Assembly: GCA_958296105.1 (NCBI GenBank)
Contig: OY282441.1
Coordinates: 2,501,800-2,565,799 of the forward strand
Reading direction: 5' to 3'
From: an uncultured Dehalococcoidia bacterium
GTDB taxonomy: Bacteria > Chloroflexota > Dehalococcoidia > Lucifugimonadales > UBA1123
Length of the DNA: 64,000 nt
Both the position numbers and the translations under genes were made by a program. The notes under the pieces were generated by a model. The model was not told the DNA's origin, made no database searches, and worked only from the letters and a program-made list of their open reading frames with translations. Positions 11,995 through 52,211 of this stretch are shown here, one piece after another. Every line of letters starts with the position of its first letter. Positions within the stretch are counted from its first letter, which is position 1.

Positions 11995-14412
11995 TTAGAA
12001 AATGGCTTGCGACTCCTTCAGCCGCTCGACCTCTCTCGGCTCGCGCCCCAGAAGTCCGCTGAACACGGCGTCGTTATGCTCGCCCAGACGGGGGGCGGTG
12101 TAGTACGCCGGATTCGGAATGTCGCTGAATCTGATCGGAAGCCCCGCCACCTCGCGCCGCCCCACTTCGGAGTGATCCATCTCGACTATGATGCCGCGCT
12201 CGCGGAAATGCTCGTCGCCCATCAGCGACACGACATCCATCACCGGCCCCGCGCCGATGCCGTTCGCCTGAAGCAGGCGCGCCACGTCCACGGGCGAGCG
12301 CGACGCCGTCCACTCCGACACCGCCTCGTCCAGCGCGTCTTCGTTGAGCTTGCGAGCCTCTAGGCTGGAAAATCTGTCGTCGCTCGCCAGATCGCGCCGC
12401 CCCATGACCTCGCACAGCACTCGCCACTCCTCATCCGAGCCGACCGCTATCGCAGCCCACTGATCTTCACCCTCGCAGCGATAGACGTTGTGCGGCGACA
12501 TGTGAGGGTCTCGGTTGCCGATGCGCTCGGCAACCCGCCCGTTCATCGCGTAGTCCAAGAACGCCTCCGGCATCATGGCGGAGACGACCTCCGCCATGGC
12601 CAGCTCGATCTTCTGTCCCTCGCCCGTCTTGCGCCGATGCCAAAGCGCGCTCAGCGTCGAGTGAACCATCATGGTGCCGACCAGATAGTCGGGCCAGTTG
12701 CCGCCCAGGTTCTGCGGCTGTCCGCCCACGTAGCCCGTGACGGACGGCTGCCCCGCGTATGAGCAGACGTTGGGACCGAAGCCGCTTGACTTGCGCTCCG
12801 GTCCGTACGTCCCCATCGTGGAGCCGCTGATCATCACGAGGTCCGGCCTGACGCGGCGCAGATCATCGTAGCCGAGTCCGTTCCGATCCAGAACGCCGGT
12901 CGAGAAGTTCTCCATCACCACGTCGCTCACCGCCGCAAGCTCCTTGACCAGAGACTGCGCCTCCGGATCGCGGATGTTCAGCGTCACGCCCAGCTTGCTG
13001 TGGTTCAGACAGTTCCAGATGGCGGAGCGGTTGACCCCTTGCACGCCGTCCGCCGCGCCGGACAGCCCTGAGCGCCCCGGCTCCAGCCGAGTGTTCGACT
13101 CGATTCTGATGACCTCCGCGCCCAGCGCGCCCAGCCATCCCCCCGCGTATGGAACGGAGAGTATCCAGCCGAAATCCAAGATTCGGACGCCCGCGAGCGG
13201 CCTGTTGCGCGGACGGTCGTCACGTACAGGTTCGCGCGGCTCGCGTATCGCAGGGCGCTCGATGCGGACGTCCGCGTTGTGCTGTCCTAGCGCAGGGGCA
13301 GGGCTTCTGAGCGTCCAGGGTGTGGCGGAGAGGCGAATCGGCGCGCCGGGCTGAGTCAGCCTGCCCACGACGGGATGATCTTGTTCTGCGAAGAAGCCGC
13401 GCTCGCGGTAGTGAGCGGAAGCCATCACCTCGTCCACCGTCTGCACCGGGAAGCAGGGTATCCCCGCGCCCTGAAGCGTGCGGTACAGCTCCGCCCTGCT
13501 CAGGCCTTTCGCCCACTCCGCCACGCCCGCCTCGATCTCCGCTAGGCCCGCCCGCCTGCCGGAGAGAGTGTCGTATTCCTCACTCCGCGCCCATTCGGGA
13601 TCGCCCATGATCTGCCTGAGCGTTGTCCACCAGTGATCGAGAAGGAAGGTCATGGATGCGTAGCCGTCCGCGCACTTCCATATCCACGGAAAGAACATCT
13701 TCTCCCTGCTCTGCGGCAGCTGCGAGATGTCGTATGAGTACATGGCGAAGTTGCCGCGAATGTGAGACGACACAGCATCCATCGCAGAGACGTCGATCTC
13801 CTGACCGACTCCGTAGGATTCTCTGTGGTGGAGGGCGCACATGGCGGCGGCGGCGGCGACCCAGCCCGCGAGGTACGTCCCCTGACTGCCGCGCCCGCGC
13901 AGCGGCGCATGGGCTTCGGGGTCGGTGACGAACATGGCGGGCGTCTCCCAGCCCATGCCGCCCATGTGCCACGCGATCAGCTCGCCGCCCTTCCAGTCGC
14001 GGTATGGGCCCACGATGCCGAACGGAGTCACGTACACGCGGATCAGCCGCGAGCCAAGCCGCGCAATGGCGGCGGAGTCTATACCGAGCCGAGCCGCCTG
14101 TTCGGGCTGCACGTCGGTTATGAAGACGTCCGCGTTCGCCACGAGACCGCGCATCCGCCGCCTGTCGGATTCGTCTAGCAGGTCGAGCGTCGCTCCGCGC
14201 TTGTTGGCGTTCAGATACAGGAATACGCCGCTCGATTCGGCGTCCGCGCGGTCGTTCGGAAAAGGCCCGAGCCGTCTGGCGGGTTCGCCCTCTGGCGGCT
14301 CTATCTTCAGCACGTCCGCGCCCATATCGGCGAATGCCTTGCCGCACGTCGCCCCCGCGCCGCCGATGCTGTACTCGACTATTTTGAGATCTGACAGCGC
14401 GCCTGCGGACAC
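11995..14412 (-). CDS. Fused tandem CaiB/BaiF CoA-transferase (inactive-like + active-like domains)
   Basis: 805 residues made of two complete class III CoA-transferase domains (about 1-385 and 410-800) joined by a short Arg/Pro-rich linker. The N-domain has GADVLKIEPPEG, NANKRGATLDL and VTPFGIVGPYRDW. At the position of the catalytic Asp it has Thr (T179 in QGTYLAG). The C-domain has GAEVIRIES and keeps the Asp (D575 in NWPDYLVG). Family enzymes are dimers with composite active sites, so this chain could mimic a heterodimer. The domain order and residues match the two separate genes at 33805 and 35015 and the fused gene at 49785. The acid substrate is unknown. The downstream gene on this strand is the Bax inhibitor-1 homologue. 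Confidence 0.85.
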   Translation of the reverse strand: MSAGALSDLKIVEYSIGGAGATCGKAFADMGADVLKIEPPEGEPARRLGPFPNDRADAESSGVFLYLNANKRGATLDLLDESDRRRMRGLVANADVFITDVQPEQAARLGIDSAAIARLGSRLIRVYVTPFGIVGPYRDWKGGELIAWHMGGMGWETPAMFVTDPEAHAPLRGRGSQGTYLAGWVAAAAAMCALHHRESYGVGQEIDVSAMDAVSSHIRGNFAMYSYDISQLPQSREKMFFPWIWKCADGYASMTFLLDHWWTTLRQIMGDPEWARSEEYDTLSGRRAGLAEIEAGVAEWAKGLSRAELYRTLQGAGIPCFPVQTVDEVMASAHYRERGFFAEQDHPVVGRLTQPGAPIRLSATPWTLRSPAPALGQHNADVRIERPAIREPREPVRDDRPRNRPLAGVRILDFGWILSVPYAGGWLGALGAEVIRIESNTRLEPGRSGLSGAADGVQGVNRSAIWNCLNHSKLGVTLNIRDPEAQSLVKELAAVSDVVMENFSTGVLDRNGLGYDDLRRVRPDLVMISGSTMGTYGPERKSSGFGPNVCSYAGQPSVTGYVGGQPQNLGGNWPDYLVGTMMVHSTLSALWHRRKTGEGQKIELAMAEVVSAMMPEAFLDYAMNGRVAERIGNRDPHMSPHNVYRCEGEDQWAAIAVGSDEEWRVLCEVMGRRDLASDDRFSSLEARKLNEDALDEAVSEWTASRSPVDVARLLQANGIGAGPVMDVVSLMGDEHFRERGIIVEMDHSEVGRREVAGLPIRFSDIPNPAYYTAPRLGEHNDAVFSGLLGREPREVERLKESQAIF

Positions 14413-33667: not shown

Positions 33668-33804
33668 CCGCTCCCTGCGATGGGCGGTCGAAGCCGAATG
33701 GATCGTCTCCCTGCGCATCTTCCCACGCATCTCACTACGATTGACACACTGGCGCATCGGTTGGAAAATATCCTTGTCGCATCTTTCGGAAATGGAGTTT
33801 CGAT

Positions 33805-35022
33805 TTGCCACAGCTGGCCCTCGATAACGTTCGCGCGCTGGATCTGACCAATGGAATAGCTGGCGGGTACTGCGCCAAGATGCTCGCCGACTACGGCGCG
33901 GAGGTCATAAGGGTGGAGCCGCCCGCTCCCGCCGCCGAGAAGTACCCGGATATCGACCGCGCCGCCAGAGCCGCGCTGAATCTTCACCTGAATACCAACC
34001 GAAAGAGCGTGACCCTCGACTTGGAGATGGAGCGCGGGCGGGAGCTGCTGTTCGATCTGGCGACTCGCTGCGACGTGATAGTGGAGAGCATGAGGCCCGG
34101 CACGGTAGAGGGTCTGGGAATCGGATACGAGACTCTCGCGGAGCGCAGACCGCAAATCGTGATGACTTCCGTCACCCCGTTCGGTCAGACAGGCCCCTAT
34201 AGGCACTGGAGCTACACGGAGCTGACGCTGTTCGCCATGACGGGCGCGATGCACAGGGAGGGGCTGCCCAACAGGAATCCGCTGAAGTACGGGGGCGAGA
34301 TCGCCCAGTACTTCGGTGGAACGGCGGCAGCGGCTGCCACGATGAGCGCGCTCGTCGGCGCTGCCATGACGGGGCTTGGGGACTGGATAGACATATCCAT
34401 CTTGGAGTGCATGGCGGGGCATCCGCACCAGATCGGGCGGCGCGCGCCTTTCGCCTACTCGGGCGAGCCGGATCTGCGCATCGAGCCGCGAACGTCCTCC
34501 GCCGGCGGACGCGAGCCTTACGCGGTGGGAACCTTCAGATGCAAGGATGGCTACGTCAGCTTCCTGCCCCTCGGCCCTCGCATGTGGCCCAACATCGCCC
34601 ACATGATAGACCGACCGGATCTGATGTCCGACCAGCGCTTCCTCTCTCCGCAGGACAGGACGGACAGCCGCGCCGAGCTCGAGAGCGTCTTCCAAGCGTG
34701 GCTCGACCAGCGAACGCGCATGGAGGTGTTCGACGCCGCCCAGCGCGCCGGCCTGCCGGGCGGCCCCGTCCTCGAAGCGCTCGAAGTCGTGGACAACGAG
34801 CATTTCAGGGAGCGCGGCTACTTCCAGAAGATGGATCACCCAGACTACGGCGCGCTGCACTACACCGGCCTGCCGTTCACCCTCTCGGACGCGCCGCGCT
34901 CTCAGCCGTCTCCCGCGCCGAGAGCGGGCGCGCACAGCAGACGGATTCTGACCGGAATGCTCGGCGTGTCCGAGAACGAGATGACCGCCCTCATAGATCA
35001 GGGGATTACTTCAGATGGCTAA
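33805..35022 (+). CDS. CaiB/BaiF CoA-transferase subunit lacking the catalytic Asp
   Basis: 405 residues with the class III CoA-transferase fold: MLADYGAEVIRVEPP, NTNRKSVTLDL, VTPFGQTGPYRHW, and the C-terminal 'RERGYFQKMDHPDYG'. In the block that normally contains the nucleophilic Asp, the sequence reads EIAQYFGGT, with Gln (Q168) aligned to Asp169 of formyl-CoA transferase. It starts at TTG with GGAG eight bases upstream. Its last codons overlap the start of the next CoA-transferase gene by eight bases, so the two are translationally coupled and probably form a heterodimer. It matches the N-terminal halves of the fused proteins at 11995 and 49785. Confidence 0.87.
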   Translation: MPQLALDNVRALDLTNGIAGGYCAKMLADYGAEVIRVEPPAPAAEKYPDIDRAARAALNLHLNTNRKSVTLDLEMERGRELLFDLATRCDVIVESMRPGTVEGLGIGYETLAERRPQIVMTSVTPFGQTGPYRHWSYTELTLFAMTGAMHREGLPNRNPLKYGGEIAQYFGGTAAAAATMSALVGAAMTGLGDWIDISILECMAGHPHQIGRRAPFAYSGEPDLRIEPRTSSAGGREPYAVGTFRCKDGYVSFLPLGPRMWPNIAHMIDRPDLMSDQRFLSPQDRTDSRAELESVFQAWLDQRTRMEVFDAAQRAGLPGGPVLEALEVVDNEHFRERGYFQKMDHPDYGALHYTGLPFTLSDAPRSQPSPAPRAGAHSRRILTGMLGVSENEMTALIDQGITSDG

Positions 35023-36358
35023 CGATAACGTCTGCGCGGCTGGGCAAGGGCCTCTGAGCGGCATTCGCGCGCTGGAGCTTGCCGAGATCTGGGCGGGGCC
35101 GTTCTGCGGCTGCGTGCTTGGCGATCTGGGCGCGGAAGTGATCAAGGTCGAGGCGATACAGCGCATCGCCCGAGGTTCGATCAAGCCTCCTCCGCACGCC
35201 TCCGGCTACCCGGACAGCGACCCCGGCGAGCGTCCGTGGAATCGCAGCGGCGCATTCAACGCGCTCAGCCGAAACAAGCTGGGAATCACGCTCGACCTTA
35301 CCACTCCGCGCGGCGCCGACGTGTTCAGAGAGCTAGTAAGCGTCAGCGACGTGGTGTTCACCAACTACGCCTTCGGCGTGATGGACAAGTTCGGGCTGGG
35401 CTGGGAGGAGCTGCGCCGCGTCAAGCCGGACCTCATCGCGCTGTTCACGCCCGGCTACGGCAACACGGGCCCCTACAGGACGTTCCGCAGCATGGGCATG
35501 GTCATAGACGCCATAACCGGCCACACCGCGCTTCGCGGCTACCCGGACATGGATCTGTCGCGCAACTCGCTCGTCCACCACCCTGACGCCGTGGCGGGAG
35601 CCACGGCGGTATTCGCCATATGCCTTGCGATCCACAACCGAATCCGCACCGGAAGGGGGCAGTTCATAGACCTGTCGCAGGCTGAGAGCTTCATGCCGCA
35701 TCTCGGAGAAGTGTACCTCGAACACGGCCTGATGGGACGCCCGCGCAGTCGGCGCGGCAACAGACACCCGGCGATGGCCCCTCACGGAGCGTACAGGTGC
35801 GCCGGGGATGACCAGTGGGTGACGATCTCGGTCAGCAGCGATGAGGAGTGGCGGCGGATGTGCGCGACGATGCAGATGCCGCAGCTGGCGCACAACCCGA
35901 AATTCGAGACGCTGCCCGCGCGCCTTCGCAGCCAGGACGAGCTGGACGAGGTGATCAGCCGCTGGACGAGGCAGATGTCCCGCTACCACGTGGCGAACAC
36001 GCTACAGGAACACGGCATAGCCGCCGGCCCCGTGCTGGACTGTGGCGGAGACGCCTACGACGACCCTCATCTTCAGGACAGGGGCTACTTTCAAGTGGTC
36101 GATCACCCGGACGCTGGCATACATCTGATGAGCGGACCGATCTGGAAGATGGCGAACCGATGCGAGGTCAGGCACGAGCCTGCGCCTGGGCTTGGTGAGC
36201 ATAACGAGCTGGCGCTTGGCGACCTTCTTGGACTGAGCCACAGCGCGCTCGTGGAGCTGGAAGCCACGCAGGTAATCGGCTCCGTGCCGCTGGAGGGCGC
36301 GGACATGGGCGGCGTGCGCCGAGCCGCCCAGCGCGGTCTGAGATCAGCCGGAGACTAG
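35015..36358 (+). CDS. CaiB/BaiF CoA-transferase, catalytic-type subunit
   Basis: 447 residues. It has LGDLGAEVIKVEA, 'NALSRNKLGITLDL', GYGNTGPY and the catalytic Asp (D191) in HHPDAVAGAT. The 'APHGAYRCAGDDQWVTISVSSDEEW' block is nearly the same as 'SPHNVYRCEGEDQWAAIAVGSDEEW' in the C-terminal half of the fused protein at 11995. It starts within the preceding Asp-less gene. Family members that work as two different subunits include benzylsuccinate CoA-transferase BbsEF and Chloroflexus succinyl-CoA:malate CoA-transferase SmtAB; the substrate here is unknown. Confidence 0.9.
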   Translation: MANDNVCAAGQGPLSGIRALELAEIWAGPFCGCVLGDLGAEVIKVEAIQRIARGSIKPPPHASGYPDSDPGERPWNRSGAFNALSRNKLGITLDLTTPRGADVFRELVSVSDVVFTNYAFGVMDKFGLGWEELRRVKPDLIALFTPGYGNTGPYRTFRSMGMVIDAITGHTALRGYPDMDLSRNSLVHHPDAVAGATAVFAICLAIHNRIRTGRGQFIDLSQAESFMPHLGEVYLEHGLMGRPRSRRGNRHPAMAPHGAYRCAGDDQWVTISVSSDEEWRRMCATMQMPQLAHNPKFETLPARLRSQDELDEVISRWTRQMSRYHVANTLQEHGIAAGPVLDCGGDAYDDPHLQDRGYFQVVDHPDAGIHLMSGPIWKMANRCEVRHEPAPGLGEHNELALGDLLGLSHSALVELEATQVIGSVPLEGADMGGVRRAAQRGLRSAGD

Positions 36359-36367
36359 CGCCCGGCG

Positions 36368-37159
36368 TCACGACACGGGCGGCGGCGCGGCGTCATCCTC
36401 GTCGGTGTAGACGTGCGGCTGATCGGGCGTGGTCACCGCCAGCCTGAACGATATGCCGTCCCCCACGCTGCTGATGTGGTGGCGCATCCCCTCGGGAACG
36501 AACACGATATCGCCCTCGCTCGCCTCTATGAGCGGTCTGCCCTCCCCCACATTCCAAGTCAGCTTGCCGCCCAGAATCGTCCACCATTCGTTGAAGTCGG
36601 GGTGCCAGTGGGCGTTGTTGGTCATGCCCGGTCCGTGACATATTAGGTTGGCGCTGTTGCGCTCGTCCAGCAGTATAGACGTCGTCCACGGAGGATCGCC
36701 GAACCTGTCCAGCATGTAGCTCAGCGTGGTGCGCAGGAGATTCGGCGGGCCGTCCTGATCTGGAAGGGGCTTGAGTATATTGGAGCGAGAGCCTTTGACA
36801 TCGTGGTTGGACGCGGGGCTGGTGACGCCCAGCCTCAGCGAGTTCTCCGTTCCCACGGTCTTTATCGCGTGCCGATGGCGCTTCGGAGCCATGACCACGT
36901 CGCCCTTCGCGGCGCGTATCGGCGGGTAGTCGCCAATCTCCCATATCAGCTCGCCAGCCAGCACGATCCACCACTCCACGAAGTCGGGGTGTACGTGAGC
37001 CTCGTTTCGCTGTCCGGGAGAGTTGCAGATCAGAACCGCGTCGTTGCGCCCGTCGGACAGCAGCTTCTCCGCCCAGGGCGGCTCTCCGCGTCGGGCGACC
37101 ACATCGGCTATTCTGATGTGCATTGGCTCTGCGCTTACGCTGTTTCCCTCGTTCGTCAT
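36368..37159 (-). CDS. Bicupin (two cupin domains)
   Basis: 263 residues with two cupin domains. Each has a metal-binding motif 1 (EAHVHPDFVEWWIVLAGEL and AHWHPDFNEWWTILGGKL) and motif 2 (GDVVMAPKRHRHAI and GDIVFVPEGMRHHI). The His-His-Glu-His ligands are visible in both. Such proteins are dioxygenases, isomerases or ligand sensors; the two domains look equally intact. The start ATG lies at the edge of the tandem repeat array, which supplies its upstream DNA. It is convergent with the CoA-transferase pair (nine-base gap). Confidence 0.8.
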   Translation of the reverse strand: MTNEGNSVSAEPMHIRIADVVARRGEPPWAEKLLSDGRNDAVLICNSPGQRNEAHVHPDFVEWWIVLAGELIWEIGDYPPIRAAKGDVVMAPKRHRHAIKTVGTENSLRLGVTSPASNHDVKGSRSNILKPLPDQDGPPNLLRTTLSYMLDRFGDPPWTTSILLDERNSANLICHGPGMTNNAHWHPDFNEWWTILGGKLTWNVGEGRPLIEASEGDIVFVPEGMRHHISSVGDGISFRLAVTTPDQPHVYTDEDDAAPPPVS

Positions 37160-37554
37160 CGGGCTGCTCCGTGGTCTTGGACGGTTTTGATAGTTTTGAC
37201 GTTCTGTCTGGCATCTGCCACGCGAGCGCGTAGCAGGCTCGGCGCGGGTCGCCCATTGGTCATCGGGCTGCATCGCGGTCTTGGACGGTTTTGATAGTTT
37301 TGACGTTCTCTGTGGTATCTGCCACGCGAGCGCGTAGCAGACTCGGCGCGGGTCGCCCATTGGTCATCGGGCTGCATCGCGGTCTTGGACGGTTTTGACG
37401 TTCTCTGTGGCATCTACCACGCGAGCGCATAGCAGGCTCGGCGCGGGTCGCCCCTTGGTCATCGGGCTGCTCCGTGTTCTTGGACGGTTTTGACGTTCTC
37501 TGTGGCATCTACCACGCGAGCGCGTAGCAGGCTCGGCGCGGGTCGCCCGATGAG
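37157..37554. repeat. Tandem array of ~104/95-bp units
   Basis: Units at 37157-37260 (104 bp), 37261-37364 (104), 37365-37459 (95) and 37460 to about 37554. The 95-bp forms lack nine bases (GATAGTTTT). Each unit carries the final codons of gamma-glutamyltransferase (GDPRRACYALAW) and a sequence ahead of the ATG of the bicupin gene. No spacers separate the units, so it is not a CRISPR array. It fills the whole 349-base gap between the two genes. Confidence 0.9.
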
Positions 37555-39311
37555 GCGAGCGTCCCCGTATGCGGGTCGCGCGTGGACACCGTCGCGCCCA
37601 TGCCCGCGCTGGCGACAGTCACTATGTCATGCCCCATAGCGCGCAGCTCGTCTAGCGCGCTGCGCGATATGCCCGGCTCGACTCCCAGCTGCCCCGGATA
37701 GTACGTGTGCGGGTAGAAGCTGTTGGTAACCCCTTGACTGGCGAACCTCGGCGCCTCCACCGCCTCCTGCGGGTTCATGCCCCACAGCAGCGAGTTCAGG
37801 ACGAGCTGCATGTTCGCCTGCGCCTGATGGTCGCCGCCCGGACAGCCCACCGTCATCACCGGAACGCCGTCTCTGGATACGATGTAGTTGACGAGGGTGG
37901 TTCTGGGACGCTTGCCTGGCTCCAAGCGGTTGGGGTGACCGTCTTCGAAGTTGAACATCTCGATTCGGGTGCTGAGCGCGCAGCCAAGCTCCGGGAAGAA
38001 GACCGACTTCCCGAACGCGCCGCCGGATGGAGTGGCGCAGACCATGTTGCCGTTGCGGTCTATCGACGAGATATGAGTCGTGCCGCTGTCGGAGCCGCCG
38101 CCGTCGCCCGCCGATGCGACTAGCTCCCTTGCCTGAGCGCGGACGCCCGACATGGCAGAGTATCTCCACGGGTCGCCGGGAGGCGGAAGCTCGCGCATCG
38201 CGCGGCGCGCGTCCACCAGCGCCGCTCGCTCGCTCGCGTAGCTCTTGGACAGCAAGCCGTCCATCGGTACTACGGCGAATTCAGGGTCGCCGTAGTACGC
38301 CTCGCGGTCGGCGAACGCCAGATTCACCGCTTGGCTGACCGTGTGAATGTACGCGGCGGAGTTATGCCCCATCGCGCGCAGATCGAAGTTCTCCAGTATG
38401 TCGAGCGCCTGCATCAAGACCGCGCCCTGCGTCCATGCGCTTTGGCCATGCACCTCGTGGCCCAGATAGCTGGTCTTGATCGGCGTCTCGTATCTGGCTT
38501 CGTAAGCCGCCAGCGATTCCATGTCCAAGACCCCGCCCACGCGCTCGCTGCAATCTGCGATGATGCGCGCGATCTCGCCAGTGTAGAAGCAGTCCCGCGC
38601 GGCGCGGACGCCGTTGGCGCGGTGTCCGCCCGCCGCGCTCTCCGCCTCCGCCAGCTTCCGCAAGATCAGCCCCAGCGACTTCTGCACCAGCGGCGAGCCG
38701 GGCGCAGGAACGCGCCCGTCGTCGTAGAACACGTCCAAGCCGCCGGGCGGGTACTGCTCGAACTGGCTTCTCGTTCCCGGGCTGTCTATGCGCTCCAGCA
38801 TGTACTCGTAGTTGGGAATGCCGCGCTCGGCGTAGTGGATGGCGGGTTCGAGTATCTCCCCCACCGTCTTGCTGCCGTACCTCTCCAGAAGGGATACGTA
38901 GGCGGCGACCACGCCCGGCACGGTGAAGCTGAGATGAGCCAGCGGACCGGGACCTGTGGGTATCTCACTCAGCCCCTGCGAGCGATACCAGTCCACTGTG
39001 GCGCGATTCGGGGCGCTTCCCTGCCCGCTCAGAGACAGCAGATCGCCACTCTCGGCGTGGTACAGCATGAACACGCCCTCGGCCGCAAGCGAGTATGACG
39101 CGATAGGCTCGGTGACGGCGGCGGCGAACCCGGCGGCAGCCACCGCGTCGAACGCATTGCCCCCGGACAGCAGCATCCTCATGCCCGCCATGGACGTCAG
39201 ATAGTGGCCGCTGGAGATCACCCCCTGCGTCCCGTATACGACCGGTCGCCCCGTCGTCTGCCGTGCGCTGTTGCCCTGCTCCATCGCGGATACTGTGTTC
39301 GAGGTTGTCAT
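37509..39311 (-). CDS. Gamma-glutamyltransferase family protein (Ntn hydrolase)
   Basis: 600 residues, full length for the family. The new N-terminal nucleophile Thr is T411 in SGTTHISSID, so autocleavage would give subunits of about 410 and 190 residues. 'GGNAFDAVAAAGFAAAVTEPIASYSLAAEGVFMLYHAESG' and 'RPRTTLVNYIVSRDG' are typical. It hydrolyses or transfers gamma-glutamyl groups, for example from glutathione. No signal peptide is visible; a cytosolic or unusual export form is possible. Its last codons are copied in the adjacent array. It starts inside the stop of the epimerase gene (ATGA overlap). Confidence 0.9.
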   Translation of the reverse strand: MTTSNTVSAMEQGNSARQTTGRPVVYGTQGVISSGHYLTSMAGMRMLLSGGNAFDAVAAAGFAAAVTEPIASYSLAAEGVFMLYHAESGDLLSLSGQGSAPNRATVDWYRSQGLSEIPTGPGPLAHLSFTVPGVVAAYVSLLERYGSKTVGEILEPAIHYAERGIPNYEYMLERIDSPGTRSQFEQYPPGGLDVFYDDGRVPAPGSPLVQKSLGLILRKLAEAESAAGGHRANGVRAARDCFYTGEIARIIADCSERVGGVLDMESLAAYEARYETPIKTSYLGHEVHGQSAWTQGAVLMQALDILENFDLRAMGHNSAAYIHTVSQAVNLAFADREAYYGDPEFAVVPMDGLLSKSYASERAALVDARRAMRELPPPGDPWRYSAMSGVRAQARELVASAGDGGGSDSGTTHISSIDRNGNMVCATPSGGAFGKSVFFPELGCALSTRIEMFNFEDGHPNRLEPGKRPRTTLVNYIVSRDGVPVMTVGCPGGDHQAQANMQLVLNSLLWGMNPQEAVEAPRFASQGVTNSFYPHTYYPGQLGVEPGISRSALDELRAMGHDIVTVASAGMGATVSTRDPHTGTLASSGDPRRACYALAW

Positions 39312-40066
39312 CCGTCCCCCCTTGTCCTGCCCTCGCTCGGCCTCTTGTGCCAGAAATCTTCCAGATTGTCGGTTGGTCGCCAGCCAAGAACGCGCTTGGC
39401 TTTCTCGTTCGTGAACTTGCCGTGCGGCAGGTCAGCGAAGACGAAGAACGTCTCGCACTTCGACGGCAGAGAATCGAGCGGCGCGCTCAGCGCAGGCTTG
39501 AACGCCTCGCCCGCGTCCTTCCAAGTCACGTTGTAGGGCGTGAAGTCCTTGCCGAAGCCCTCCCGCTCGTCGCCGTAGTGGAAGTTGTAGAACAGAAGCG
39601 TCAGCACGTGCAGATCGTGGTTCTCGGTAAAGACGCGGCATATCTCCTGGCCCAGCGACTTGGTTATTGCGTACAGGTTGGTGCCGGACTGTGACGGAAC
39701 ATCCGGCCCTATGAGGTGATCCGAGTTCTCGTACGTCGGCCCCGCGATGGTGAAGTGGGGTCCGGTGTTGATCAGGCGCTCGATTCCGTGGTGAACGGCG
39801 GCGGCGCAGGCGTTGTACGTTCCTCGCGCGTTCACGTCGAAGGCGAGCCGGCGGTCGTGCCTCAGCACCGACAGGTCGATGATCGCGTCCATGCCCTCCG
39901 CTGCGGCGATCACGGCGTCGAGATTGGAGACGTCCACGTCGAGATACTCGTGCGGAGTGTCTGGCGGATCGTTGATGTCGGTCAGGCGCAGAGTATGTTC
40001 CTCCTCCAGCGCCGGGATGACGTGCGGCCCCAACATGCCGTTCGCTCCGAGTATGAGTACGTTCAT
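39308..40066 (-). CDS. NAD-dependent epimerase/dehydratase
   Basis: 252 residues of the extended SDR family with LGANGMLGPHVI at the start, 'DVDVSNLDAVIAAAEGMDAIIDLS', and YAITK (Tyr and Lys). It probably acts on a sugar nucleotide or similar ligand. The gene overlaps the gamma-glutamyltransferase start by four bases and follows another epimerase-like gene by 22 bases, forming an operon. Confidence 0.84.
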   Translation of the reverse strand: MNVLILGANGMLGPHVIPALEEEHTLRLTDINDPPDTPHEYLDVDVSNLDAVIAAAEGMDAIIDLSVLRHDRRLAFDVNARGTYNACAAAVHHGIERLINTGPHFTIAGPTYENSDHLIGPDVPSQSGTNLYAITKSLGQEICRVFTENHDLHVLTLLFYNFHYGDEREGFGKDFTPYNVTWKDAGEAFKPALSAPLDSLPSKCETFFVFADLPHGKFTNEKAKRVLGWRPTDNLEDFWHKRPSEGRTRGDG

Positions 40067-40088: not shown

Positions 40089-40784
40089 TCATCTTGCGCT
40101 GAGTGTGTATCCCAGAGCTGTACGGGCGGCTGTGGTTAGGAATCTCTGGTTGGGAACCGACGATTGGATGTGGAACAGTCCCCAGTAGCTGCGCGAGTCG
40201 GCGTAGCCTTCGGATATGTCGGCGCTCAGCGCGCGCTCGACGGCATGAACCGCATCTTCGACGTAGAGACCGTCCGAAGGCGGCGCTTCGCCCGAGTTCC
40301 ACGTCAGCTCGCCCAGCCGCAGGCAGACGACTTCGATTCGATGCTCACGCGCGAACTCTCGACAGATGAACTCTCCCATATGGAAGCCGAGCGTTTCGGT
40401 ATCGGTCGTGGGCGCTGGTCGCCAGCACTCGGTGACGGCGTGGCGTTCGTCGTGCCTGCCCATCACCGCCAGCGAGCTGAGGAAAATCAGGCGCGGCGTT
40501 CCCTCCTCGCACGCGGCGCGAACGAGGTTGTACAGACAGCGCATAGCGTCATCGAGCCGCTCCGAAACGCTGCCGCCGCGCTCCGACCGCCCCGAGTGGA
40601 TGATGACGTCCATCCCCCGGACCAGATCGCTGGTGGCATCGTCATGGTCGAGGTCGCAGCGAACGAAGTTCTCCACTCCGTCGACAGCCGCGCGATCCGT
40701 AAGCGTGACCGCGTGCCTGTCGCCGAGAGCTGACGCCAGCCGCCGCGCGATAGCCGCGGATGCCCCCGTAATCAGGATGTTCAT
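40089..40784 (-). CDS. NAD(P)-binding epimerase-like protein, Tyr-Lys site missing
   Basis: 231 residues. The Gly-rich loop TGASAAIARRLA, 'LDHDDATSDLVRGMDVIIHSGRS' and a Ser-containing 'IFLSSLAVMG' strand match extended SDRs. The position of YxxxK reads FHMGEF, so the catalytic Tyr and Lys are absent. It may bind NAD(P) in a structural or altered role. It is the first gene of the operon that continues to gamma-glutamyltransferase and possibly the bicupin. Confidence 0.75.
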   Translation of the reverse strand: MNILITGASAAIARRLASALGDRHAVTLTDRAAVDGVENFVRCDLDHDDATSDLVRGMDVIIHSGRSERGGSVSERLDDAMRCLYNLVRAACEEGTPRLIFLSSLAVMGRHDERHAVTECWRPAPTTDTETLGFHMGEFICREFAREHRIEVVCLRLGELTWNSGEAPPSDGLYVEDAVHAVERALSADISEGYADSRSYWGLFHIQSSVPNQRFLTTAARTALGYTLSAR

Positions 40785-41245
40785 GCTGTCTCGGCCCCCG
40801 CCACAGAGTATCCAATCTCCATCTCACATACCTTACCGCATTCTGGGCAAAATATACATCTGGCAAGAAATTCGCAAAAAACCTTGACGGGCGTCAGGGT
40901 CGAACGCTCGTGTATCCTCTGCATATTCATCATATTCATCCTCTACTCCGCGAAAGCTGTACTTGCAAAAACCTCTGATCGGACATTTCTAGTCGGATAA
41001 GGAGAGTCCCCCGCTCGCTAGTGGGCGGTCGGGGAACTCTTTCATGGTCGGGCATAGGCGGGACGTTCGCGCGGCTGCTCCGCCCCGTGAGCTTATCGTT
41101 GGTGCGTCAGCCCAGCCAGCCCTTGCTTTCATGGTCGGGCATAGGCGGGACGTTCGCGCGGCTGCTCCGCCTCGTGAGCTTGGCGGTGCGTCAGCCCAGC
41201 CAGCCCTTGCTTTCATGGTCGGGCATAGGCGGGACGTTCGCGCGG
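40785..41245. other. Intergenic region with AT-rich leader and repeats
   Basis: 461 bases. 40820-40990 is AT-rich and holds a TATATT-like box toward the epimerase gene but no good -35. 41040-41245 is the repeat array. No gene is visible. Confidence 0.45.
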
Positions 41246-41255
41246 CTACTCCGCC
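41040..41255. repeat. Tandem ~85-bp repeats at the end of the VOC gene
   Basis: Units start with TTTCATGGTCGGGCATAGGC at 41040, 41127 and 41211 (87 bp, 84 bp, partial). The last unit runs through the stop codon of the VOC gene (41246-41248); in the other units that codon is CTG-like and no longer a stop. Confidence 0.88.
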
Positions 41256-41626
41256 TGCGGCATCTCGTTGGCGACTAGGCCCACCGGCGCGCCCGTCGGG
41301 TCTGAGAAGAAGGCTATCGTCACCGCCCCGGGGATCACCGTCACGGGCATGAGTACCTGTCCGCCTGCCTCCACCGCCTTGTCGAGCGTCGCCTGAAGGT
41401 CGTCCACCGCGATGTAGAACGCCACGTGGCTCTGGTCATCGAACGAGGGGCCGATTCCCCCGCCGATGCCGGAGTCCGACTGCGTATCGACGATGGCGTA
41501 GTTCATGTCTGGCATACTGGGCATGGGAGCGGAGTTGATCTCCCAGCCGAAGACGTCTTCGAAGAACGCCTGGCTCTTCTCCGCGTCTGTCGACTGGATC
41601 TCGAAGTGGATTACGGGGTTGGGCAT
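41246..41626 (-). CDS. VOC (glyoxalase/bleomycin-resistance) family protein
   Basis: 126 residues with two beta-alpha-beta-beta-beta modules: 'VIHFEIQSTDAEKSQAFFEDVFGWEI' and 'SHVAFYIAVDDLQATLDKAVEAGGQVLM', ending 'IAFFSDPTGAPVGL'. The metal-binding pattern (His, Glu positions) resembles the family members of glyoxalase-like, non-I type. Substrate unknown. It has the best promoter in the window. Confidence 0.85.
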   Translation of the reverse strand: MPNPVIHFEIQSTDAEKSQAFFEDVFGWEINSAPMPSMPDMNYAIVDTQSDSGIGGGIGPSFDDQSHVAFYIAVDDLQATLDKAVEAGGQVLMPVTVIPGAVTIAFFSDPTGAPVGLVANEMPQAE

Positions 41627-41835: not shown

Positions 41836-42020
41836 CACACGAAAAACCGCTAAAGTCCTCGCGCTCGTCGCCTGCTTCGAGTGGGCGCATGATCAGGCGA
41901 ACCACAAAACACGAAAAGCCGCGAAAGCCCCTGCGCTCGTTCGCCTGCTTCGAGTGGGCGCATGATCAGGCGACCAGAAAACACGGAAAACCGCGAAAGC
42001 CCTCGCGCTCGTCCGCTGTA
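41836..42020. repeat. 72-bp tandem repeat, 2.5 copies
   Basis: Units begin ACACGAAAA.CCGC at about 41836, 41908 and 41981. Each contains GCCTGCTTCGAGTGGGCGCA except the last, which is cut short. The array ends 12 bases before the acyl-CoA dehydrogenase stop. Confidence 0.82.
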
Positions 42021-49149: not shown

Positions 49150-49788
49150 ATGATCATAGGACTTCTCACCGACACCCACCTTCCCAACGTCATTCGCCAC
49201 CTCGAAGAGCTTGGCCCCGAGCCGAAAGAGTTCTTCGAGAGCGTAGACCTCATCCTGCACGGCGGCGACCTGACCGCTCCATACGTCTTGGACTGGCTGG
49301 AGCAGTTCGCGCCCGTGCTGTGTTCCACAGGAAACAACGACCCGATCCCCGATTCGCGCTGCGAGGACGTGCAGACATTGGACCTCGAAGGCTGGCGCGT
49401 GGGCATGACCCACAGCCTCGGCGGACAGTTCAAACCCGTCTCCACGCTTCAGAAGCACTTCCCGCAGCCGGTGGACGTTATGATAGCCGGACACACCCAC
49501 GAGGAGCGGCTGGAACATAGAGACGGCGTCACGCTCGTCAACAGCGGCTCGATCACCTTCCCCCACCACAAGGAGCTTCGACTGGGCACCGTCGGACTGC
49601 TGGAGCTGACCCCGCATACGCTGAGCGCGAAGGTCTTTCCTCTTGGTCACACTCCGGGGAGACCGAACCCCGGCAGAGAGATCAGCTTGGAGATTCAGCG
49701 CAGCGGAGACGGCGAAATCAGGCCGGGCGCGGAGCGCTCGCGCAGCGAAGCAGACACAGCCTATACAGGAGTAAGACCGCTCCCATGA
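49150..49788 (+). CDS. YfcE-type metallophosphoesterase
   Basis: 212 residues. Metal-binding blocks LTDTHL, HGGDL, TGNND, MTHSLGG and GHTHEE are all present, then a C-terminal extension rich in Arg/Glu after 'VFPLGHTPGRPNPG'. It is a binuclear phosphodiesterase of unknown substrate, related to the enzyme at 2093 but longer. ATGA overlap with the fused CoA-transferase suggests coupling. Confidence 0.85.
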   Translation: MIIGLLTDTHLPNVIRHLEELGPEPKEFFESVDLILHGGDLTAPYVLDWLEQFAPVLCSTGNNDPIPDSRCEDVQTLDLEGWRVGMTHSLGGQFKPVSTLQKHFPQPVDVMIAGHTHEERLEHRDGVTLVNSGSITFPHHKELRLGTVGLLELTPHTLSAKVFPLGHTPGRPNPGREISLEIQRSGDGEIRPGAERSRSEADTAYTGVRPLP

Positions 49789-52195
49789 CGCAGCTGCTAG
49801 AGGGCATCCGAATATTGGACTTCAGCCAAGGGATGGCGGGGTCGATCGCCACCATGGTGATGTCCGACTTCGGCGGCGAGGTAATCAAGATCGAGCCGCC
49901 CAAGGGCGATCCGTACCGCGCCGTCCCGTCCTCTCTGCTGTGGAATCGCGGCAAGAAGAGCGTCGTCATCGACCTTTCGACCGATGAAGGGCGCGCGCGA
50001 ATCAGACGGCTTGCGCGTTCTGCGGACATAGTGGTCGAGAGCTTCACGCCCGGCGACGCGGAGGCTCTGGGCGTGGACTACGCTACGCTGAGCGCAGAGA
50101 ATCCGGGCTTGGTATATGCCTCCGTCACGGCGTTCGGGGCGGAAGGCCCCTATGCGCGCTACCGCCCATACGAGGCGGTGGTCAGCGCCAAGTGCGGGCG
50201 CTACATGGCGTTCGCCGGACAGAACGAGCGCGAAGGGCCGAACTACGGAGCCGTTCAGGTCGGCAGCCACTCCGCGGCGATGGCGGCGGTCAGGGGATCG
50301 CTTGCCGCGCTGATGATCCGAGACCGCACAGGACGCGGTCAGCGCGTCGAAACCAGCCTGCTTCAGGCAATGACCTACTACGATCTCGCGCAGTGGGTCG
50401 TCTGGCAGATGATGATAAACTTCCCCGAAGACTACGACGACCCATCCGTCATCGCATCCCGTCCTACGCCGATCCAGTACCTCCCCGTCCGCGCCGGAGA
50501 TGGACGCTGGCTTCAGCTCGCCAACCTGATGGAGAGGCTGTTCATAGCCGAGATACACGCTATCGGGCTCGGTCACATGCTGGATGATCCCAGATTCGCC
50601 AACGCTCCGCATCTGGACGACGAGGCGCGCGAGGAGATGCGCGAGCGCATCTTGGCGCGTATGCAAGAGCGGACTCTGGACGAGTGGATGGATCTGTTCA
50701 TAGACGTGGAGGGCGACGTGGCAGCGGAGCCGTTCATGACGTCCACGCAGGCGCTCGACCATCCGCAGATGGTCTATAACGGCTCGGTGGAGCTGGTGGA
50801 AGACCCCACAGTCGGCCCCATGCGACAGCTTGGCGCGCTGTTCCACATGGACGGCGCGCCGCCAGCCGTGCAGGGTCCGGCTCCGCTGCTCGGACAGCAC
50901 ACCCATCGAACCCTATCCAGCTGCCCCGATTCGCCCTCGACCTCCGCAAGCTGGGGCGACGGAGAGCTTCCCAAGACTCCGCTCGAAGGCGTCGTCGTAC
51001 TAGACCTTTCGACGGTCATAGCCGGGCCGCTGGCAGGCTCGCTGCTGGCAGAGATGGGCGCGAGGGTCATACGCATAGAGACGCTGGCAGGCGACTGGAT
51101 GCGAAACGCCTACAACGGCCTGGCCGCCAACCGCACTATGGCAGGAACCGAAGGGCTGTCCATAGACCTCAAAACCCCAGAGGGACGCGACATCCTCGAC
51201 AGGCTGCTTCCCAAGGTGGACGTGGTGCTTCACAACATGCGCCCGGGCGCTCCCGAGCGCGTGGGCATAGGAATCGAGCAGGTGCGCGCGCTGAGCGAGG
51301 ATGCCGTCTACGTCTATATCGGCGGGTACGGCTCCAGCGGCCCGTACAGCCACCGCCCGGCAATGCACCCCATAGGCGGCGCGGTCGGCGGCGGCGTCAT
51401 GGCGCAGATCGGGCGCGGCGGACTGCCGCCCGAAGACCAGCGGATGACCATGAGCGAGCTTCGCGCCGTCTCGCGCCGTCTCGGACGGGCGAACGAGGTC
51501 AACCCAGACCCGAACACCTCGATGGTCGCGTCCACCGCCGTAGTCATGGCGCTGTACGCCAGACAGCGGCTCGGCAAGCCGCAGTACGTGGAGACTACCA
51601 TGATCTCCGCCAACGCCTACGTCAACGCAGACGACTTCTTCGACTACGAGGGCAAGCCGCCACGCCCCATACAGGACGCCGACGGCTGCGGGCTTCACGC
51701 GCTGCACCGCCTCTACGAGGCGCGCGAAGGCTGGGTGTTCTTGGCGTGTCCGTTCGAAGACGAGTGGGAGCGCATGTGCCGCGCGCTCGAACGCCCCGAC
51801 CTTCTCCAAGACGCCAGATTCACAGACGACGCCAGCAGACGCGCCAACGATGAGGCGCTCGCATCCGAGCTTGCCGCCATGTTCGCCGCCAAACCGGCGT
51901 CCGAGTGGGAAAGGCTGCTGACGGCGGCGGACGTGGGATGTGTGCAGGCTGAGGACAGAGGCATGTATCACTTCTTCTCCGAAGATGCCCACGTAGAGCA
52001 GAACGAGCTGACCACAGACGTTCACCACCCGAGGTTCGGCGCATTCTGGCGATACGCCCCCGCGCTGCGCTTCTCACGAGCGGCGTCCGTAGCCGGGCCC
52101 GGCATCATGCGAGGCCAGCACACGATCCCCATACTGAGCGAGCTGGGTTACTCCGAAAGTCAGATTCACGAGCTGAGGTCCAAGCGCGTCCTCGA

Positions 52196-52211
<16 letters not shown>
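49785..52211 (+). CDS. Fused tandem CaiB/BaiF CoA-transferase (inactive-like + active-like domains)
   Basis: 808 residues: N-domain 1 to about 375, linker with Ser/Pro/Thr, C-domain about 400-808. The N-domain has [14 protein letters not shown] and '[14 protein letters not shown]'. The catalytic Asp position is Ser (S161 in VGSHSAAM). The C-domain has [14 protein letters not shown], '[13 protein letters not shown]' and the Asp (D575 in NPDPNTSM). This is the second fused copy of the pattern also seen in the overlapping genes at 33805 and 35015, and the Asp falls at residue 575 in both fused proteins. Substrate unknown. Confidence 0.85.

Follow-up and report, generated by a model that had tools for sequence, protein, structure and literature searches.

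What does a CoA-transferase subunit that lacks its nucleophile contribute when it is encoded beside a partner that carries one? This question is raised by two adjacent genes on the plus strand of the window, by which we mean the whole stretch of 64,000 nucleotides that was analysed, from an uncultured marine bacterium of the SAR202 type. Gene 1 (33805-35022, +; 405 aa, TTG start) encodes a class III CoA-transferase subunit that lacks the catalytic Asp; we call this subunit silent, and it is of the BbsE type. Gene 2 (35015-36358, +; 447 aa, ATG start) encodes a class III subunit of the BbsF type, in which the Asp is present. Both products span the PF02515 domain (CoA_transf_3) over its full length and above the cut-off (E 3e-88 for gene 1 and 9e-94 for gene 2), and the two domains are 28% identical to each other. 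Against the NCBIfam models of named transferases (Frc, SUGCT, mesaconate and carnitine) both genes fall below every curated equivalog cut-off, with best scores of 182 of 442 and 204 of 750 bits.

The two ORFs share eight bases (ATGGCTAA, 35015-35022, +), as the initial annotation had stated. In nearly all orthologous gene pairs the start and stop overlap or nearly abut, frequently with a 4-base overlap. The 4-base overlaps of the orthologues and the 8-base overlap found here suggest coupled translation. Upstream of gene 1 lies a promoter-like TTGACA-17-GAAAAT (33741-33769, +), which was assigned solely by its match to the consensus.

The ORFs adjoining the pair belong to other families, and none of the toluene-pathway genes of a bbs operon is seen there. 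The pair does not qualify as a benzylsuccinate CoA-transferase, which activates benzylsuccinate and is encoded in a bbs operon. Beyond the pair itself no neighbours are conserved in relatives, except for a cupin gene in three of them. Operon context was set aside as a substrate clue because no conserved neighbour names a substrate. Elsewhere in the window, four tandem copies of a repeat of about 95-104 bases (37145-37588) are located between cupin and gamma-glutamyltranspeptidase-like genes and extend into the ends of both flanking annotated ORFs. Three direct-repeat copies of 72 bases (41014-41256) and two copies of 50 bases (41868-41990) are intergenic. Two adjacent epimerase/dehydratase-like genes (39308-40066 and 40089-40784, -) are weakly similar to the glucose-6-phosphate dehydrogenase Azf.

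The identity of the residue in the catalytic column is central to the question. In a locally gap-free alignment, Gln168 of gene 1 (codon 34306-34308, +) occupies the position of the catalytic Asp of E. coli Frc (D169), SUGCT, 4ed9 and 10uh. Asp191 of gene 2 (codon 35585-35587, +), the predicted nucleophile, aligns with D178 of BbsF, the best solved relative of gene 2. This assignment of the column is consistent across E. coli Frc, YfdE, human SUGCT, 4ed9, 10uh and BbsF, and a misaligned Asp column is ruled out by several independent solved relatives. Orthologous pairs were collected from 25 contigs, all labelled SAR202, Dehalococcoidia or Chloroflexi, and from 14 relatives of the window's genome. 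Among the readable loci the gene 1 column is Gln in 21 of 23 and Gly in the other 2, never Asp or Glu, and the gene 2 column is Asp in 24 of 24. The placement of Gln168 and Asp191 in this column by the initial annotation is upheld by these data, and the comparison with Frc and BbsE/BbsF that it had proposed as a check leaves Gln168 in the Asp169 column.

The predicted model of gene 1 has a complete class III fold (mean pLDDT 81, pTM 0.80). Its closest solved structures are SUGCT, Brucella Frc and a BbsEF chain (Z 36-38); the other class III enzymes score Z 30-34, and over the whole Z range the aligned span is approximately 350-387 residues. Q168 is found near the start of helix 166-189, which is comparable to the helix carrying Asp165 in the solved MCT (PMC9196870). 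Both genes have the full-length domain and the fold of the class III superfamily, the fold being taken from the gene 1 model, but an Asp in the Frc D169 column is present in gene 2 (Asp191) and absent from gene 1 (Gln168). An assignment as alpha-methylacyl-CoA racemases, which have His and Asp at columns 139 and 169, was rejected for gene 1, where both columns are lost (Thr138/Gln168). The racemase pair is also lacking in gene 2, which has Met160/Asp191.

BbsEF is an enzyme of toluene degradation. The title of PDB entry 9fol describes a D178-CoA adduct of BbsEF, and chain counting places the catalytic column at residue 178, an Asp, in BbsF and at Ala170/Tyr171 in BbsE. Because the adduct is on the column Asp of BbsF and BbsE has Ala/Tyr, the combination of a silent and an Asp subunit already exists in a solved enzyme. 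The pair described here very probably belongs to the BbsEF-type heteromers, an already known kind. As in BbsEF, separate genes encode an Asp-less and an Asp-carrying class III subunit, and in both pairs the silent subunit has an acid and the Asp subunit a Gly at Frc column 140. The pair differs from BbsEF in that the gene 1 product is about a quarter identical to the solved BbsEF chains, and in that it is one of 14 pairs in its genome and adjoins no toluene-pathway genes.

Other known systems share part of this design. SmtAB, the succinyl-CoA:malate CoA-transferase of Chloroflexus, is a two-gene class III enzyme from the same phylum. The gene 2 product shares its fold and Asp chemistry with Frc/YfdW, YfdE and human SUGCT, but these are homodimers from one gene, in which both subunits carry the Asp and the GY[DE] acid. 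The two-domain class III protein PtmU4 is reported to have its Asp in the C-terminal domain (PMC6006322). DddD and PtmU4 are likenesses as fused pairs, and the order of PtmU4, with the Asp domain C-terminal, is that of all five fusions of this genome. They differ from the present pair, which consists of two genes of the BbsEF clade, and some of the genome's fusions group in a second clade.

The phylogenetic tree was built with the columns around the catalytic Asp removed. Eleven silent domains of the genome and BbsE form one clade (100/100), and their eleven partners and BbsF form its sister clade (100/100). Gene 1 is in the BbsE clade and gene 2 in the BbsF clade, and the two genes are adjacent, one with and one without the Asp. 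This placement bears out the initial annotation's choice of BbsEF as a precedent, and its core reading, a class III CoA-transferase made from two genes of which one lacks the nucleophile, is well supported. The sub-branching of the silent and Asp clades is largely mirrored; g283446 groups with BbsE, for example, and g284664 with BbsF. Between the paired clades the distance matrices are correlated (r 0.42), a value reached in 57 of 20000 permutations, and the eleven pairs of this genome alone give r 0.37 (295 of 20000). The mirror signal between paralogous pairs is moderate. On the simplest reading of the tree, a silent and an Asp subunit would have arisen by one ancestral duplication, and pairs would have been duplicated afterwards. 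Three further pairs group elsewhere, with plasmid fusions of Sphingomonas, Rhodococcus, Mycobacterium and Sinorhizobium. Together with these fusions they look like a second origin, the Asp side of which has weaker support (83/25).

A domain census of the 3.18 Mb genome, compiled from separate stretches, contains 41 domains of the class III CoA-transferase family in 36 ORFs. Thirteen domains are unpaired, and every one of them has kept the Asp. The remaining 28 make up 14 pairs, five fused in one ORF and nine encoded by two genes, and the silent domain comes first in 5/5 fusions. Exactly one Asp is found in 13 of the pairs and none in the remaining one. The E-type and F-type members of the genome match one-to-one (11 and 11), and 10 of these 11 pairs are adjacent or fused. 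Two of the five fusions are located inside the window. One (11995-14412, -; 805 aa) is of the same E/F type, with a silent N-terminal domain (Thr in the column) and an Asp C-terminal domain; the other (49785-52211, +; 808 aa) is of the second type, with Ser in its silent N-terminal domain and an Asp C-terminal domain. Pair 3 (1529297/1528047), encoded by two genes in this genome, has orthologues that are single fused ORFs in two relatives (L215 and L216, of G007 and G005). Conserved adjacency, natural fusions and mirrored trees strongly suggest the obligate heterodimer that the initial annotation had proposed, and it is from these patterns that we infer it.

Several loci depart from the common arrangement. 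A silent gene (genome 1116515-1118521) and its apparent Asp partner (1130453-1131796) are separated by approximately 12 kb, and the two are adjacent in a relative (L097), which suggests a rearrangement. The E/F-type pair without any catalytic Asp (genome 2219957-2221225, -, and 2218687-2219955, -; L229 and L230) has Asn in place of the Asp in its F-type subunit. The same Asn is found in the nearest relative tested (G001), and the orthologues in other relatives keep Asp. In one relative (G011), the catalytic column is Asp in both members of a pair (L072; 329, -, and 1570, -), and the column-140 acid is missing from both. Four relatives of the same family (G004-G007) each yield approximately 87-107 first-look candidates for class III CoA-transferases, about double the count of the window's genome.

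Residue signatures were compared in 98 sequences at 60% non-redundancy, and the counts are of sequences rather than independent events. Relatives were grouped by scores against profiles built from labelled sequences. The groups therefore depend on these profiles, although no single column decides the grouping. Frc column 104 is basic in 17/20 of the unpaired domains and 21/30 of the Asp domains, compared with 5/34 of the silent ones. The lack of a basic residue there in most silent subunits argues against an intact second CoA site. The GY[DE] acid at Frc column 140 has a different distribution: 0/30 Asp domains have it, compared with 31/34 silent and 19/20 unpaired ones. In gene 1 it is retained as Glu139 (codon 34219-34221, +), which is invariant in 14 orthologues. 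In gene 2 it is replaced by Gly161 (codon 35495-35497, +), as in BbsF. Among the 64 non-redundant chains of the E/F clades there is none with both the acid and the Asp, which occur together in 19/20 unpaired enzymes. The only silent-clade member with an Asp, from the L072 pair, has Ser at column 140. The second-origin set has a similar but weaker trend, with the acid in 6/7 silent and 3/7 Asp domains. Within the E/F clades the acid may have been lost in one ancestral event and the change retained. Neither a conserved silent small domain nor the acid/Asp split was found described in the literature on BbsEF consulted, which did not include the papers on its structure and original biochemistry.

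In solved homodimers the small domain lines the active site of the partner. One Asp per heteromer implies one working site, and the small domain of the silent subunit is therefore predicted to stay conserved. The ratio of small-domain to large-domain identity among 14 orthologues is 1.15 for gene 1 (column bootstrap 1.01-1.30) and 0.72 for gene 2 (0.63-0.82), the bootstrap assuming independent columns. Two sets of unpaired enzymes both give 0.80. Such strong conservation of the small domain is unusual and would be expected of a domain that closes the active site of its partner. Sharing of this kind is documented for YfdE, in which a single site combines Asp173 of one subunit with His233 of the other (PMC3720670). 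In the two other pairs tested, the silent subunit has a ratio of 1.05 in pair 3 (0.93-1.18) and 0.71 in pair 2, and reversed domain conservation was rejected as a general rule for silent subunits because it fails in pair 2. With pair 3 leaning in the direction of the present pair and pair 2 departing from it, conservation supports the model for the present pair and provides no rule for the family.

These data can be set against other explanations of the pair. The two products could form separate homodimers, an active one with the Asp and a silent one that does something else, for example binding or sensing an acyl-CoA. Many class III enzymes are homodimeric (PMC3720670), and both sequences cover the whole fold, which is complete in the gene 1 model. 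Separate homodimers are nevertheless improbable given the one-to-one match of E and F types, 10 of 11 of them adjacent or fused, the natural fusions that join exactly these two types, and the presence of both kinds of chain in solved BbsEF. It is less probable still that the gene 1 product remains catalytic through another carboxylate. Glu165, three residues N-terminal of Q168 and invariant in 14 orthologues, could by its position be such a second carboxylate, and BbsE has an Asp at about the same place. However, this column is acidic in only 10/34 silent subunits, and Glu165 was rejected as a replacement nucleophile because an acid is not general in the silent clade. The rarity of a basic residue at column 104 and the lack of an aromatic one at column 139 (0/34 silent subunits) also count against catalysis by the silent chain.

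The initial annotation had suggested that the silent subunit is specialised for binding or regulation. In its allosteric form, in which the subunit regulates its Asp partner through a vacant CoA site, this suggestion gains from the partial retention of the nucleotide-binding motif E-S-x-R-P-G. The large domain of gene 1 is less conserved than the small one, however, column 104 of gene 1 is not basic, and no regulatory domain or neighbour was found. Allosteric regulation is consequently as improbable as catalysis through Glu165. The initial suggestion is unsupported in the form given: no evidence of regulation was found, an intact second CoA site is disfavoured by column 104 (basic in 5/34 silent and 17/20 unpaired domains), and the conservation favours the small domain.

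From the residues, pairing, phylogeny and conservation observed, we infer that the two genes very probably encode a BbsEF-type heteromeric class III CoA-transferase, with a putative complex, division of labour and activity. As part of this whole reading, Asp191 of gene 2 is with the same high probability the sole nucleophile of the pair. It would form the acyl-aspartyl anhydride and aspartyl-CoA intermediates. Each heteromer would have one working site, composed of the large domain of gene 2 and the small domain of gene 1, and the large domain of gene 1 would be the dead site. The gene 1 product would serve its partner structurally and in the substrate pocket, and its substrate-facing half-site would be free to evolve. 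The likely reaction would be the activation of an organic acid from an acyl-CoA donor. More tentatively, the catalytic residues of an ancestral homodimer may have been split, with Asp169 in one chain and the Frc-140 acid only in the other. We consider it possible, though rather doubtful, that the silent acid takes part in the single working site from the other side of the interface, making the pair an obligate complementation enzyme, which would have been multiplied in SAR202-type bacteria into many substrate-specific copies.

SAR202-type bacteria have large CaiB/BaiF expansions, which have been counted as independent enzymes (PMC5395668). With 28 of 41 domains resolved into 14 pairs or fusions, both the enzyme count and the likely mechanism change. 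Of greater interest in the finding are the extent of pairing within a single genome and the acid/Asp split between chains, and the split names a specific residue to test. Many of these enzymes would need two co-expressed genes for assay, and the pairs are natural half-site mutants for testing active-site sharing between class III subunits.
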